DNA of 64,000 nt from Microbulbifer sp. A4B17 (GTDB lineage Bacteria > Pseudomonadota > Gammaproteobacteria > Pseudomonadales > Cellvibrionaceae): positions 816,501-880,500 of the forward strand of contig NZ_CP029064.1 in the NCBI RefSeq assembly GCF_003076275.1, in the 5' to 3' direction. The translations under genes were made by a program, and so were the position numbers. The notes below the pieces were generated by a model that had not been told where the DNA came from, did not search any database, and saw only the letters and a program-made list of their open reading frames with translations. Below are positions 3,486 to 10,323 of the stretch, one piece after another. The first letter of the stretch is position 1. Each line of letters begins with the position of its first letter.

Positions 3486-3561
3486 GGGTCGTTAGCTCAG
3501 TCGGTAGAGCAGTTGGCTTTTAACCAATTGGTCGCTGGTTCGAATCCAGCACGACCCACCA
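3486..3561 (+). tRNA. tRNA-Lys (anticodon TTT), copy 1
   Basis: This 76-nt gene has a complete cloverleaf. The acceptor arm GGGTCGT pairs with ACGACCC, followed by the A discriminator and an encoded CCA. The D-arm is AGCTC..GAGC, the anticodon loop CTTTTAA gives anticodon TTT, and the T-arm contains GGTTCGAATCC. It differs from the second copy by one base (C rather than T in the D-loop region, TCAGTCGG against TCAGTTGG). Confidence 0.98.
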
Positions 3562-3667: not shown

Positions 3668-3743
3668 GGGTCGTTAGCTCAGTTGGTAGAGCAGTTGGCT
3701 TTTAACCAATTGGTCGCTGGTTCGAATCCAGCACGACCCACCA
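3668..3743 (+). tRNA. tRNA-Lys (anticodon TTT), copy 2
   Basis: This 76-nt cloverleaf is identical to copy 1 except for one D-loop base, with acceptor GGGTCGT/ACGACCC, anticodon TTT and encoded CCA. It starts 106 nt after the end of copy 1, so both are probably transcribed together. The AT-rich curlin region begins just downstream. Confidence 0.98.
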
Positions 3744-4138: not shown

Positions 4139-5146
4139 ATGAAAACCGTAACCCCCATAACTGCCGCAATCTGTTTGGTGGCATTCAGTCATTCCTCTTT
4201 TGCGGATAATAATTCCACCATTGTTGAACAAAATGGGATTGGAAATAGCGCTATGGCAGATCAGTCCGATAGCGCGGTCAATTTTAGTCAGGTGATACAG
4301 TCCCAGACTGGTAACGGTAATCAGGTTGTCGCTGAGCAATACACAGATGTAACGGCGGCGACGGTAATTCAGACCCAGATTGGGGATGGGAATATTGCTA
4401 CTGCGGAACAGTTCAACAATATTGCTTTAGCCAGTCTAACTAATGTTCAACTTGAACAGTTCCAGTCAGGTAATGCCAATACTGTGATGAGTACCCAGCT
4501 GGGCACTGTGACGAATAGTAGTTTGACTGTTAATCAAGTAGGTAACATGAACCTGGTTGATAATAATGTGCAGAGTTTCAGTGTTGATGCGAGCACTATG
4601 ACGATAAATCAGCAGGGAGATATGAACATTGTCGGCCCCAGCTTTGCTCTACAGCAGCAGACGGTCAATTCTACTTTGTTGGCCACACAAATTGGCCAGA
4701 TGAACCAGATGGACGTTAATCAAAACTTAAATACCAGCTCAAGTTCGATGGTTGGTATTCAAGATGGCGTTGGAAATATTGCGGCCTTGGATCAGTTCGG
4801 TGGAGTCAGCTTCCTTACGATGAACTTGTTGCAAATGGGTAATGATAATATGGCGACCCTGGAACAGGAGTTTACTGTTGAAAATTCAAGTATGCTTGTC
4901 GACCAGTTTGGCGATATGAATGTAGCTACGCTGGATCAAGGAAGTGCCTTTTTCACCAGTGCTACAGTGTTGCAGGTCGGCGATTTCAATGATGCGGATA
5001 TCAATCAGTCAAATATCACTACCGGAGTAGCCTCAATATCTCAATCGGGTACCTCCAATGTATATGCCACTTCGCAAGCTGGCACCGCAGAGACGGCAAT
5101 AGCGACACAGTCTGGGGTGAGTAATACCGGCACAATTTTACAGTGA
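4139..5146 (+). CDS. Secreted curlin-repeat protein 1 (CsgA/CsgB-like), intact
   Basis: This 335-residue protein has a Sec signal peptide (MKTVTP...SSFA, cleavage near residue 22). The remainder is about 13 imperfect repeats of roughly 23 residues of the form S-x-h-x-h-x-Q-x-G-x-x-N-x-A-x-x-x-Q, for example TVIQTQIGDGNIATAEQ and NSSMLVDQFGDMNVATLDQ. This is the curlin repeat that stacks as a beta-strand-turn-beta-strand unit in the amyloid fibre of curli. It has more than twice the five repeats of E. coli CsgA and ends in TGTILQ. It is probably an extracellular amyloid or fibre subunit, but no csgE/F/G export genes are in the window. AAGGA lies upstream of the ATG. Two damaged paralogues follow on the same strand. 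Confidence 0.85.
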   Translation: MKTVTPITAAICLVAFSHSSFADNNSTIVEQNGIGNSAMADQSDSAVNFSQVIQSQTGNGNQVVAEQYTDVTAATVIQTQIGDGNIATAEQFNNIALASLTNVQLEQFQSGNANTVMSTQLGTVTNSSLTVNQVGNMNLVDNNVQSFSVDASTMTINQQGDMNIVGPSFALQQQTVNSTLLATQIGQMNQMDVNQNLNTSSSSMVGIQDGVGNIAALDQFGGVSFLTMNLLQMGNDNMATLEQEFTVENSSMLVDQFGDMNVATLDQGSAFFTSATVLQVGDFNDADINQSNITTGVASISQSGTSNVYATSQAGTAETAIATQSGVSNTGTILQ

Positions 5147-5606
5147 CAGTCAGTTCTTTAATTTCTGCGCTGCTAAGCACTTCTTCTGGTGGCGCAGATA
5201 ATTAACTCTAAACTTTATTCCTAATTTTTCCCCACTTCCTTCTTATAGCGGTATTGCTGCTTATCGTTAACTCTTACCCAGTAGTTGGTCGGCCCTTGAT
5301 CAGAGATTTGAGAATAGTTTCTAAATATTCAGTCGTTCAGTATCGCAAGTGACCCAGTGCCAGTACATGTGAATCCCTTTTTGGGGGTTTTTGCATAAAT
5401 ATTTACGCCTGTCTCAATATCACGGTATTCGATTTTGGCGGAATTTAGTGTTCCGTTTAATGAGTGCTGTTGTTCGATATTGGGATGGCGCTGAATTGGA
5501 TTTTTTCAGGTTTTATGCGGACATATGTATTGGTGTTGGTGCTATCTATGAGGCCCTCTAGATTGAGTCCCGAGAAAAGCTTGAATAGTTAATTAAGGAT
5601 TGAATT
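5147..5606. other. 460-bp AT-rich spacer between curlin genes 1 and 2
   Basis: I see no gene or RNA here. A weak hairpin (TCTGCGC...GCGCAGA, about 5166-5200) lies after gene 1. The last bases carry the AAGGATTGAATT leader of gene 2. The spacing is long for an operon, so each curlin gene may have had its own promoter. Confidence 0.5.
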
Positions 5607-6800
5607 ATGAGGAAGTTTAAGCCAGTAGCTCTAGTGATATTGACTGCAGTGAGTGGTGGCGCTATAGCCAGTAATAATACGACAATAGTGGGTCAGTAGG
5701 GTATTGGTAACACAGCTAATGCCAATCAGGTTGATCCTACGGCCATTGGGAACCTGATAGATGTTACCCAGATTGGTAATGCTAATACTTCATCGTCGAC
5801 CCAGGCCAGCGATGCTGTTAGCAATACCATGACCCACTATCAAGAGGGCGATGGCAATATGGCTGAATCCTTTCAGCAGTTTATTACTGAGGCCAGTTCG
5901 CTGGAGATCAATCAGGTCGGAAATAATAACGACACGACAGCTGAGCAACTTGAGTCAATTGGTTCTACTCAGGAGTTAAATCAAACGGGTGAAATGAACT
6001 TTATGACTATCACCCAGACTGATACGGAAGCTTCCAATATTGCAGTAACCCAAACTGGTAATATGAATGATGCGATTCTAATGGGACAGGTTTTTGATAT
6101 ATTGGCGAGCAATATTACTCTGAACCAAATTGGCGACGATAATATGGCTCAAATTGGGCAGCAGAGTATTGTTGAGAACAGCTCTATTTCTGTTGACCAA
6201 GTTGGCAATCAAAATCTCTTTGTCAGTGAGCAAATAATGGGAGTATTTTCCTCTTCCATTAATGTCCTTCAGTCTGGTGATATGAATGAGGTTGATTCCG
6301 ACCAAGAAAATGGGGTTACCGCAAACACTGTTCTAATTGCCCAAATAGGTAATGGGCATTTTGGAGGGGCTCTACAGGACGATGGAGTTACTAATAGTAC
6401 TGTAAATGTGAGTCAGTCGGAAGATGGAAACTTCGGTGGTGGTGTTCAGCAAGCTGTAGTCGATTCTACTGTTGGCAGTGTAAACCAGTCAGGTACCATG
6501 AATATGGGAATTACCCAGCAAGCAGGGGGTACCTCTTTCGCCACCGCCACACTTACTCAGTTGGGCACTACGAATAATGCAATGCTCGGACAGTTTGGTA
6601 TGACATCAGTTACGGGTTTTATATTGCAAAATGGTACAAGTAATATGGCGGAGATAGAACAGGTTGGTAATATGTTAAGCAATGCAACAATTACTCAGTT
6701 AGGTGATCTAAATCAACATATGACTCAACAAATGCTGGATTCTAAAACCACAGTTGCTACACAAAACGGCACTTCAAATATTGGATTTATTTTCCAATAA
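5607..6800 (+). pseudogene. Curlin-repeat protein 2, interrupted by an in-frame TAG
   Basis: The reading frame starts at ATG 5607 after AAGGA and encodes a signal peptide (MRKFKPVALVILTAVSGGAIA) and SNNTTIVGQ. It then meets TAG at 5697-5699 (codon 31) and runs open for 366 more codons to TAA at 6798-6800. Beyond the TAG lie about 16 curlin repeats, such as SNITLNQIGDDNMAQIGQQ, ending in SNIGFIFQ. The paralogue has IVEQNGIGN where this has IVGQ-stop-GIGN, so a single base change (for example CAG or AAG to TAG) explains the lesion. The rest of the frame looks unspoiled, suggesting a recent loss, suppression by readthrough, or a sequencing error. Re-initiation at ATG 5829 would lack a signal peptide. 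Confidence 0.8.
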
Positions 6801-7039
6801 AATTTATTGGGGTTTTGCACCTGTGTTTGGAGAAGTAATACTTATTAAGTAGATGTAAGCCCCCCCTTTTTTTTCTTTTCGCTCAATTTTGTGCCTGGGT
6901 GATGGTTTTTTGAAGACTAAGTTGTTATTTCTATTGATTTCGCACTACTAATTTACGTCTCTAGCACTAATCTTCTAGGGGGATATAGAATCTGTTATAG
7001 AATTTTTTTGTTTCAGAGTTTAAGTAAAAGGATTGAGAT

Positions 7040-7901
7040 TTGTTACAGGGAATTGATTAAGTGAATACTTGGATTTCACTGACTGCAGTCGCTTCGCTTA
7101 CCATTAGTGTCCATGCTGTCGGCAGCAATAATATGACAGACATTGAGCAGGAGGGAGTTGGGCATCTGGCAACAGTGGATCAGTCAAATCCTACCAGTAC
7201 CAGCAATACAGTTTCGATAACCCAAAGCGGGGATTCCCACCAGGTATCCGTTTTACAGGGGGCTCTCACGGATTTGAATACGGGTACGGTAGAGCAAGCT
7301 GGTTTGATGAACCAGGCAATTCTTGAGCAGATTGCAGAAGTATCTGAGAGTATTGCTCTGATTAGTCAATCTGGCGATGGCAATCTGGGTTGGGTGGTAC
7401 AAGATGATTTTGTTGTCGCCGGCAGTGCCATTGTTATTCAGTCGGGCTCTAATAATGAGGCCGTTGCTGCGCAGGTGGACGTGGGGGGGAATACAGGGAA
7501 CGGTCGCTGTTACGCAGTCAGGAACGATGAATTTTGCACAGGCTGTTCATGAAGATTTTGCTCTTGATAGCACTGGATTAATTGACCAGTTTGGGAGTGA
7601 GAATAGTGCTGAGTTATTCCAGGGTGACCTGACTGAATCGAGCGTTATAAGTGTTGTACAAGACGGAACGCTAAATGAGGCATTGGTGGGGCAGAGCTTT
7701 GCAGTTTCCTCCAATATTACCACCTTCCAGAGTGGGGATATGAATTATGCAGAGGTTTCTCAACTGGGGTTGAGTACTGGATCGGCCACCACTACCCAAT
7801 TAGGATCTTCCAATATTCATGTTACTGTTCAAATGAATGATAACCAGGTGGCGGTAGCAACTCAGATAGGGAGTAGTAACCAGGGAGATATAATACAATA
7901 G
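7040..7901 (+). pseudogene. Curlin-repeat protein 3, decayed start, in-frame TAA and G7 frameshift
   Basis: The leader AAGGATTGAGAT-TTG (7028-7042) aligns with AAGGATTGAATT-ATG of gene 2, so the ancestral start was probably at 7040. That frame meets TAA at 7058-7060, and an open frame restarts at GTG 7061 (NTWISLTAVASLTISVHA), whose signal-peptide-like segment lacks the usual basic n-region. About five curlin repeats follow. The frame is then lost at a run of seven G (7483-7489), ending at 7552. Removing one G restores a frame through six more repeats (TVAVTQSGTMNFAQAV...) to TAG at 7899-7901 and the shared C-terminal end SSNQGDIIQ. Three independent lesions make a true pseudogene more likely than a phase-variable gene, though the G7 run alone could vary. 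Confidence 0.75.
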
Positions 7902-7994: not shown

Positions 7995-9107
7995 TCATTT
8001 TTTCGGCACTTTTCCGATAATTTCTGCCGCAATTTTTCCCAGATATAGTGACGAGGTAAGCCCGGGGGATTCAATACCAAAGAAAGCGATTAATTGCGTT
8101 TTGCCAGAGAATTTTTTGTGGTAGAGCTGGAAATCTCCGGCGGGGGCTCCTTGGGAAACTATTTTGGGGCGAATGCCGGCATAACCAGGCTGCAATGTAT
8201 TTTCTATTACACCGGGCCAGTAACGACGGATACTATTATAGAATTTTTGTTGCTTGCCTGGGTCTACTTTGTAATTAATGGTGTCGACCCACTCTACATC
8301 CGGCCCAAAGCGCGCCCCTCCGGCTAAATCTAGAGTGAGGTGAATACCCAGGCCGGCTTTTTCTGGCAGTGGGTAAATTAAGTGGGAGAAGGGCGCTTTG
8401 CCCGATTGAGTGAAATAGCTGCCTTTGACAAAGTAAGTGTTGGGAATTTCTTTTTTTACTGCTTTGCTATCAATGGTTTGCATTAGCAAACTGGTGTGAA
8501 GGCCGGCGGCCAGAATCAGGTTGTTGGTTTTCAGTCTGTAGCCATCCGCCATCACCAACTGGCATATACCTGTAGAGACTTCAATTCGGGCAATTTTGGT
8601 TTCGAGTACCACTTCACCACCCTTGGATTCCAGGGCACCCTCAAGGGCCAGCATTAAGCCGTGGCTATCGATTATGCCTGTCGTCGGTGAGTGGATTGCA
8701 CTAACACATCGTAATTCCGGCTCCATAGATTGGGCATCAGTGGCGCTGAGTAAACGAAGTCCCCCTGCGTTGTTAATATCCCCCTGGGTTTTGAGGGCGT
8801 GCAGCTTTGCGAGCTGTGATTTATCGGTGGCGACAACCAGCTTGCCGATTTTTTTATGGGGAACATCGTATTCCCGACAAAATTGATAAAGCATGGATTT
8901 ACCGGCGACACAGGCTCGGGCTTTCAAGCTTCCGGTCGGGTAGTAGAGTCCGGCATGAATGACTTCACTATTGCGCGCACTGGTTTCAGTCCCAATGGCG
9001 CTGTGTTGTTCCAGTACCATCACATTGCGGCCAGTCAGGCTCAATTGGTAGGCACAGGCCAGCCCCAATATGCCAGCGCCGACTACTACGGTATCCAGTG
9101 TTTCCAT
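7995..9107 (-). CDS. lhgO: FAD-dependent oxidoreductase, L-2-hydroxyglutarate oxidase (LhgO) type
   Basis: This 370-residue flavoprotein begins with the FAD-binding Rossmann motif VVVGAGILGLACAYQL. It carries the signatures of the LhgO/L2HGDH family, RNSEVIHAGLYYPTGSLKA near the N-terminus and GLGIHLTLDLAGGARFGPD in the middle. The C-terminal FFGIESPGLTSSLYLG loop contacts the flavin in the DAO fold. The family oxidises L-2-hydroxyglutarate to 2-oxoglutarate, feeding electrons to the quinone pool. The start at 9107 is preceded by AGGACC; the in-frame ATG at 9146 has no good ribosome site. It is divergent from nadA. A related DAO-family substrate cannot be excluded. Confidence 0.8.
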   Translation of the reverse strand: METLDTVVVGAGILGLACAYQLSLTGRNVMVLEQHSAIGTETSARNSEVIHAGLYYPTGSLKARACVAGKSMLYQFCREYDVPHKKIGKLVVATDKSQLAKLHALKTQGDINNAGGLRLLSATDAQSMEPELRCVSAIHSPTTGIIDSHGLMLALEGALESKGGEVVLETKIARIEVSTGICQLVMADGYRLKTNNLILAAGLHTSLLMQTIDSKAVKKEIPNTYFVKGSYFTQSGKAPFSHLIYPLPEKAGLGIHLTLDLAGGARFGPDVEWVDTINYKVDPGKQQKFYNSIRRYWPGVIENTLQPGYAGIRPKIVSQGAPAGDFQLYHKKFSGKTQLIAFFGIESPGLTSSLYLGKIAAEIIGKVPKK

Positions 9108-9235
9108 AGCGGTCCTGTTGATTAACTGAGAACTTTGAAGGGGCATCCATGATAAAACCCCAGAGCTTATTTTGCCTGTAACAACAGATAAATATCACTG
9201 TCAAAAGGGTGCGTGGTGGTGTCGTTCCATTGCGC

Positions 9236-9270: not shown

Positions 9271-10323
9271 ATGACTCAGAAGTCCATTGCCGCAGACAAT
9301 GTAGATTCTCGCTCTTTGGTGCAGGCGCACCTGGCGGAGCCGGTAATGTCACAATATAGCGAAGAAGAGCTGCAAGAATGGCGTGAGCGTATTAAGCGCT
9401 TACTAAAGGAACAGAATGCAGTATTGGTCGCACACTACTATACCGATCCCTTGATCCAGGCCCTGGCTGAAGAGACTGGGGGTTGTGTTTCTGATTCGTT
9501 GGAAATGGCTCGTTTTGGTGCCCAGCATTCAGCGGATACCCTGGTGGTGGCTGGTGTTAAGTTCATGGGGGAGACTGCCAAAATCCTTACCCCCAACAAA
9601 AAAGTATTGATGCCGACACTTGAGGCAACCTGCTCCCTGGATCTCGGCTGTCCCCCGCAAGAATTCTCTGACTTTTGCGACCAGCATCCGGACCGCACTG
9701 TGGTAGTTTATGCCAATACCTCGGCGGCAGTGAAAGCACGGGCTGACTGGGTTGTAACCTCCAGTATTGCCTTGGATGTAGTGGATCACCTTGATGCCAA
9801 CGGGGAAAAAATCCTCTGGGCACCGGACAAGCATCTTGGCGGCTATGTGGAGCGTGAAACAGGTGCCGACGTCCTGCTTTGGGATGGCTCCTGTATCGTC
9901 CATGAGGAATTTAAGGCGAAGGGTGTCGAGGACTTAAAGGCCCTCTATCCCGATGCTGTGGTTTTGGTACATCCGGAGTCCCCCGCCTCTGTGGTAGCCC
10001 TGGCTGATGTGGTGGGGTCTACTTCGCAGATTATTAACGCAGCCAAGACCCGCCCGGAGAAGCGATTTATTGTGGCAACCGACCAGGGCATTTTCTACAA
10101 AATGCAGCAGGAGTGCCCGGATAAGGAGTTGATGGTGGCGCCGACAGCCGGTGCTGGGGCGACTTGCCGCAGCTGTGCTAACTGCCCCTGGATGGCGATG
10201 AATTCTCTGGAGAATCTGTGTGGGGTATTGGAGCGCGGTGATAATGAGATTTTTGTAGATCCAGAGCTGGGTCGCAAGGCGATGATCCCACTGCAGAGAA
10301 TGCTGGATTTCCGCAAAGGCTAA
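9271..10323 (+). CDS. nadA: NadA, quinolinate synthase
   Basis: NadA condenses iminoaspartate (from NadB) with dihydroxyacetone phosphate to quinolinate, the second step of de novo NAD synthesis. The 350-residue protein carries the three cluster ligands at C121 ([12 protein letters not shown]), C208 ([10 protein letters not shown]) and C305 ([13 protein letters not shown]). These correspond to E. coli C113, C200 and C297 with a constant offset of eight residues. The substrate motif [13 protein letters not shown] follows a short variable N-terminus. It is transcribed alone, with a bidirectional terminator after it. nadB is not in the window. Confidence 0.97.

Follow-up and report, generated by a model that had tools for sequence, protein, structure and literature searches.

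Tandem long curlin-repeat genes beside tRNA-Lys in Microbulbifer sp. A4B17, a likely satellite of a dispersed family of curli subunits

We analyze a 64-kb stretch (the window; genome positions 816501-880500) of the 5.04-Mb single-contig genome of the marine bacterium Microbulbifer sp. A4B17, in which three curlin-repeat (PF07012) genes stand in tandem on the + strand at window positions 4139-7901. This array is likely a satellite cluster of curli structural subunits that would be exported through CsgG encoded elsewhere in the genome, in a family that would turn over by birth and death. An earlier note on this DNA had offered two readings, an orphan system without export machinery or a cluster whose secretion genes lie elsewhere. 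The first fails genome-wide, as csgE, csgF and csgG are each present twice, and the second is borne out by csgE-F-G sets at 3.98 and 4.17 Mb, accompanied by LuxR-family regulators and curlins. Two features had escaped that note: genes 2 and 3 carry lesions, and seven other dispersed curlin sites exist besides the array. A curlin cluster without nearby csg genes need not be an orphan system.

Background

Curli are usually pictured as consisting of one major and one minor subunit, encoded beside their exporter. Microbulbifer sp. A4B17 departs from this picture in that most subunit genes are distant from the exporter and strongly divergent from each other. Its curlins resemble the E. coli curli or type VIII secretion system (csgBAC-csgDEFG) in their repeats, their putative leader (recognized by eye), their predicted beta-solenoid and the occurrence of CsgE, CsgF and CsgG in the genome; unlike in E. 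coli, the subunit genes lie far from the exporter, are 2-3 times longer than that of CsgA and number 25.

The length of the array genes is not in itself new, because CsgA homologues of 4 to 62 repeats are already in print (PMC10192328). According to the same survey, the number of CsgA copies per genome declines towards 14, with a maximum of 30 in GCF_003076275.1, the genome studied here; in the accessible part of that paper this figure is a count only, and gene positions, the second operon, broken copies and turnover are not described (PMC10192328). Long CsgA homologues of up to 22 repeats were noted outside the Enterobacteriales in a paper that discusses functional genes versus pseudogenes and, in its accessible part, argues that csg genes are rarely found disrupted (PMC3521004), a picture unlike that of the dispersed curlins of this genome, 7/18 of which are disrupted. 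Searches of the open-access literature listed no study of curli in Microbulbifer or of curlin families dispersed in this way. Great curlin length and CsgA homologue counts of up to 30 per genome are already known, and a dispersed lineage-specific family is what we did not find described: the protein family is known, its scale here is unusual, and the mechanism is one that we infer.

Results

Lesions in array genes 2 and 3

The earlier note described three consecutive curlin-repeat genes with about 13, 16 and 11 repeats, and suggested a PF07012 search of their products and a genome search for csgEFG. The curlin assignment holds, both by profile and by predicted fold: all four open reading frame (ORF) pieces of the array match PF07012, at 42.7, 45.7, 55.2 and 37.6 bits against a Pfam gathering score of 20.7. 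The repeat numbers were close to ours, which are 14 core motifs (QxGxxN and close variants) in gene 1, 16 in gene 2 after its stop and 5 + 6 across the split frames of gene 3, leaving out a loose match, QLGLST, in gene 3. Three whole genes, on the other hand, are not what the sequence contains, since genes 2 and 3 are interrupted:

4139..5146, + strand: gene 1, intact curlin-repeat protein of 335 amino acids with 14 core motifs (PF07012 42.7 bits; leader by eye)
5607..6800, + strand: gene 2, curlin-repeat gene with an in-frame stop (ATG at 5607; ORF open over 5700-6800)
5697..5699, + strand: in-frame TAG within gene 2, preceded by 30 codons
7061..7901, + strand: gene 3, curlin-repeat gene split over two frames (GTG start at 7061; the first piece covers 7061-7552, the other frame ends at 7901)
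7483..7489, + strand: run of seven G, frameshift site of gene 3 (frame lost at or adjoining the run)

Leader-like N termini are recognizable by eye in all three genes (before the stop in gene 2), and gene 1 alone combines a leader with an uninterrupted ORF. The first ATG of gene 2 after the stop is at 5829. Glutamine accounts for 11% of the codons in genes 1 and 2 and for 8.5% in the opening piece of gene 3, compared with 2-5% in six neighbor genes; because of this high share, curlin genes offer more one-step targets for nonsense mutation.

Curlin genes at ten places, exporter genes at two

Profile searches found no csgE, csgF or csgG in the window, as the earlier note had observed (the window-wide search did not extend to csgD-like regulators). 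Genome-wide, two of each were found, all above Pfam cut-offs and only at 3983-3985 kb and 4165-4167 kb, with a LuxR-family regulator directly upstream of both sets. Downstream of the first set (operon 1) lie one csgB-like and four csgA-like curlins, and downstream of the second (operon 2) one short csgB-like and one csgA-like curlin, classed by size and place. The array itself, at 0.82 Mb, holds subunit genes that are not beside exporter genes.

Our census by profile and motif scan, which may miss diverged or short remnants, counts 25 curlin genes at ten places. Seven are those beside the two csgE-F-G sets; the other 18 are dispersed over eight sites (genome positions):

window array: 3 genes
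1390-1401 kb: 4 genes
2578-2583 kb: 2 genes
3247 kb: 1 gene
3306-3309 kb: 2 genes
3331 kb: 1 gene
4092-4102 kb: 4 genes
4108 kb: 1 gene

Interruptions or truncations affect seven of these 18 curlins, namely genes 2 and 3 of the window and the ones at 2582, 3247, 3306, 4092 and 4108 kb, and none of the seven operon curlins. One of the 11 unbroken dispersed curlins is short, at 172 amino acids. Almost all dispersed ORF pieces (21/22) score higher against the operon-1 subunits than against the operon-2 CsgA.

Predicted fold and conserved end repeats

The predicted model of gene 1 is an all-strand beta-solenoid (mean predicted local distance difference test score, pLDDT, 79.5). Its best match among solved structures is 8c50_A (VIA-align; 26% identity), that is, R15.5, the CsgA of Pontibacter korlensis (PDB 8c50). 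Pontibacter korlensis belongs to a different phylum from Microbulbifer. Against NF007470, the NCBIfam equivalog model for CsgA, gene 1 scores 121.4 bits and the gene 2 piece 105; because these scores are under the cut-off of 160 bits, neither is filed as a CsgA orthologue.

In the Microbulbifer family, repeats at either end of the protein prove conserved beyond the Q-G-N-Q core, and the middle repeats keep little else than the core; this comparison pooled repeats from whole genes and pieces (92 N-terminal, 69 C-terminal and 504 middle windows). R15.5, which has 15.5 repeats, polymerises head to tail via its end repeats and is reported to be a poor binder of thioflavin T (PMC10192328). The end repeats of the Microbulbifer curlins may be kept for docking, export or both, which would let different subunits share one fibre. 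A homologue search with gene 1 gave 1 match among 2419 candidates, and one with the A1 profile at least 37 matches among 8000 scored candidates; neither indicates a function.

Selection on whole and broken curlins

We made 41 pairwise comparisons, 40 with relatives and one between paralogues, to obtain the ratio of nonsynonymous to synonymous substitution rates (dN/dS). Of these, 24 gave a ratio and 17, being saturated at synonymous sites, were not used; the values are rough, as several of the 24 have dS above 1.5, and, being pairwise, they do not apportion change between lineages. Ratios are 0.07-0.11 for the operon curlins (6/15 comparisons usable), 0.11-0.21 for the whole dispersed curlins, including the short one of 172 amino acids (6/12 usable), and 0.07-0.22 for the pieces of broken curlins, each ORF piece taken separately (12/14 usable), with the pieces of array genes 2 and 3 at 0.09-0.19. 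As a control, 14 of these pairs were read in two wrong frames, and dN/dS was 0.97 or more in 28/28 readings. Judged by these ratios, the curlin genes are under purifying selection wherever it is measurable.

Whole orthologues survive in relatives. That of gene 2 is whole in M. okhotskensis (397 amino acids) and split between frames in another relative, G051, and those of gene 3 are whole in both (279 amino acids each). For gene 1, we found a single syntenic relative, in G013, and that copy is riddled with stops and frame shifts. Because dN/dS is low in the broken pieces and whole orthologues exist in relatives, the lesions look recent.

An expanded family in the genomes with a second csgG

Among 48 Microbulbifer genomes, csgG is present in 41, and curlin-profile matches occur in the same 41; the seven genomes lacking csgG have no curlin matches. 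Thirty-two genomes have 4-7 curlin matches each, and nine (the source genome G000, G003, G004, which is M. okhotskensis, G009, G013, G049, G051, G058 and G059) have 12-60, counts of matches and not of genes, since a long gene may give two matches and each piece of a broken gene adds its own. These nine are exactly the genomes with a second strong csgG; in G014 a second csgG match is partial, at 24.5 bits. In a tree of 23 csgG sequences, from which the split csgG of G051 was left out, the operon-1 type groups with six single-operon genomes, and eight operon-2 sequences form their own group with full support. The same nine genomes have the top QueC identities to the source genome (91-97%, itself aside; 89% or less in the others). 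Because the nine expanded genomes are also the nine highest in QueC identity, the expansion and the second csgG are probably products of one or a few evolutionary events. Beyond the genus, in a class-wide sample of 274 genomes, any PF07012 match was found in 7, including the source genome; the next highest count was 10 matches, against 25 in the source genome (34 in the more thorough search of that genome itself).

Two side observations concern csgG. In G051 the operon-2 csgG is divided over two frames (C1 4283827-4284461), and an additional csgG of the operon-2 type in G049 contains an internal TGA (C1 2573510-2574142).

The array occupies a tRNA-Lys slot with variable cargo

The array lies between conserved neighbors:

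3486..3561, + strand: tRNA-Lys (anticodon TTT), marking the left end of the slot; its place behind queC is conserved in relatives
3668..3743, + strand: second tRNA-Lys (anticodon TTT)
7995..9146, - strand: flavin adenine dinucleotide (FAD)-dependent oxidoreductase of the DAO family, closing the slot on the right throughout the clade (PF01266 194.9 bits; synteny)
9271..10323, + strand: nadA, syntenic anchor (PF02445 361.8 bits; synteny)

We compared the stretch after queC in 18 relatives. A curlin array sits in the slot of one of them, G051. In M. okhotskensis the slot contig stops after the tRNAs, and the array is found on two further contigs: the first carries the orthologues of genes 2 and 3 plus another, split gene, the second a 543-amino-acid curlin adjoining DAO and nadA; the two contigs presumably adjoin in the genome. 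The slot of G058 holds a short array remnant, and that of G013 (L030 1243-8046, tRNA-Lys to DAO) holds a TonB-receptor-like protein and another membrane protein, both identified by eye, together with the degraded gene 1. A motif scan found no curlin in the slots of the other 14 relatives, two of which (G003 and G049, the only ones so treated) were also compared at the DNA level for degraded curlin remains, with none found. Slot cargo varies between species, no two of the three array-bearing species have the same array content, and, judged from the content in G013, the slot is an exchangeable cargo site. As a side observation, the DAO gene next to the M. okhotskensis curlin array reads as two ORFs (L024 2034-3186).

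Discussion

On the satellite-cluster reading, whole members such as gene 1 would enter the periplasm via their leader, and unfolded subunits would cross the outer membrane through the CsgG-CsgE-CsgF encoded at 3.98 and 4.17 Mb, to join or form curli-type beta-solenoid surface fibres. The dispersed set would gain and lose genes at exchangeable sites like the tRNA-Lys slot, leaving strain-specific subsets of subunits. Export of the dispersed curlins through CsgG is what their family membership and the lack of curlin matches in the seven csgG-less genomes point to; they may also co-assemble and form amyloid.

Several points weigh against this account. We infer expression, export and fibre formation from the genes, and two of the three array genes cannot yield a full protein as read. 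The selection evidence comes from other curlins than gene 1, whose sole syntenic relative found is the degraded copy in G013. No promoter motif common to the curlin genes could be established, and the array region shows no promoter-like excess; GTTCGA and AAGGAGT stood above background in 22 upstream regions, but in a comparison that made no correction for how many words were compared, and AAGGAGT is a word typical of ribosome sites, so neither was accepted as a shared promoter box. Breakage is confined to the dispersed curlins as a tendency only, since the excess of broken genes there (7/18 vs 0/7) is not significant (Fisher p 0.13). Finally, the link between family expansion and a second csgG comes from one clade and may be a coincidence of descent.

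The array could instead be a dead relic, its broken genes and gene 1 unexpressed leftovers while the useful members lie elsewhere. Two of its three genes are indeed broken, gene 1 is degraded in G013, the array is reduced to a remnant in G058, and the missing promoter-like excess would fit; yet gene 1 has stayed open across 335 codons although 11% of them are glutamine codons, each one transition from a stop, and the dN/dS of the pieces of genes 2 and 3 and their whole orthologues in relatives also speak against it, so that we regard a relic as unlikely. We give somewhat less credence still to the lesions being sequencing or assembly errors, with all three genes intact in living cells of the strain. 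Frameshifts at homopolymers are typical of faulty assemblies, low dN/dS suits whole genes, and the source genome has ten G or C runs of at least 7 in 151 kb of the stretches compared, against none in 136 kb of G051. The stop in gene 2, however, involves no frame shift and is not the usual homopolymer error, lesions of several kinds occur across the family, and breaks in array genes also occur in other assemblies.

The G runs also raise the idea of phase-variable subunits, with slippage switching single dispersed curlins on and off. Two frameshifts do fall at G runs inside curlins (a run of seven in gene 3 and one of nine in the 3306-kb gene), but the other interrupted curlins have stops or truncations, nine curlin-rich stretches of G051 contain no G or C run of at least 7, and such runs in the source genome are not limited to curlins. 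As a general cause of the lesions G-run phase variation is unsupported, and as an account of the array we consider it very improbable.

Returning to a satellite cluster served by a distant CsgG, a bolder extension can be offered tentatively, as speculation: one Microbulbifer clade might build a combinatorial amyloid, in which dozens of distinct long curlins, from a dispersed family with rapid turnover, would pass through two CsgG pores to give a strain-specific surface of mixed-subunit fibres. Such a system would exchange genes at tRNA-linked slots and silence individual members, by analogy with variable surface-protein families. If the subunits are exported together, these strains would be a natural test bed for mixed-subunit amyloid, covering the compatibility of end repeats, the sorting of subunits by two CsgG pores and fibre composition in relation to habitat.

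Genes adjoining the dispersed curlin sites

Secreted right-handed beta-helix (NosD-like) proteins adjoin three dispersed curlin sites, at 1380-1397 kb, 3307 kb and 3333 kb (L015, L018 and L054), which may be by chance; genome-wide, the family used as query matches 29 times, at about 12 sites. Major facilitator superfamily (MFS) transporters flank the broken 3247-kb curlin on both sides (L017 2425-3807 and 6562-7932), and another adjoins the broken 4092-kb curlin (L020 2172-3548). Between the dispersed curlins at 4096-4098 kb lies a glycoside hydrolase family 19 (GH19) chitinase with CBM5/12 and PKD domains (L020 7901-10336).
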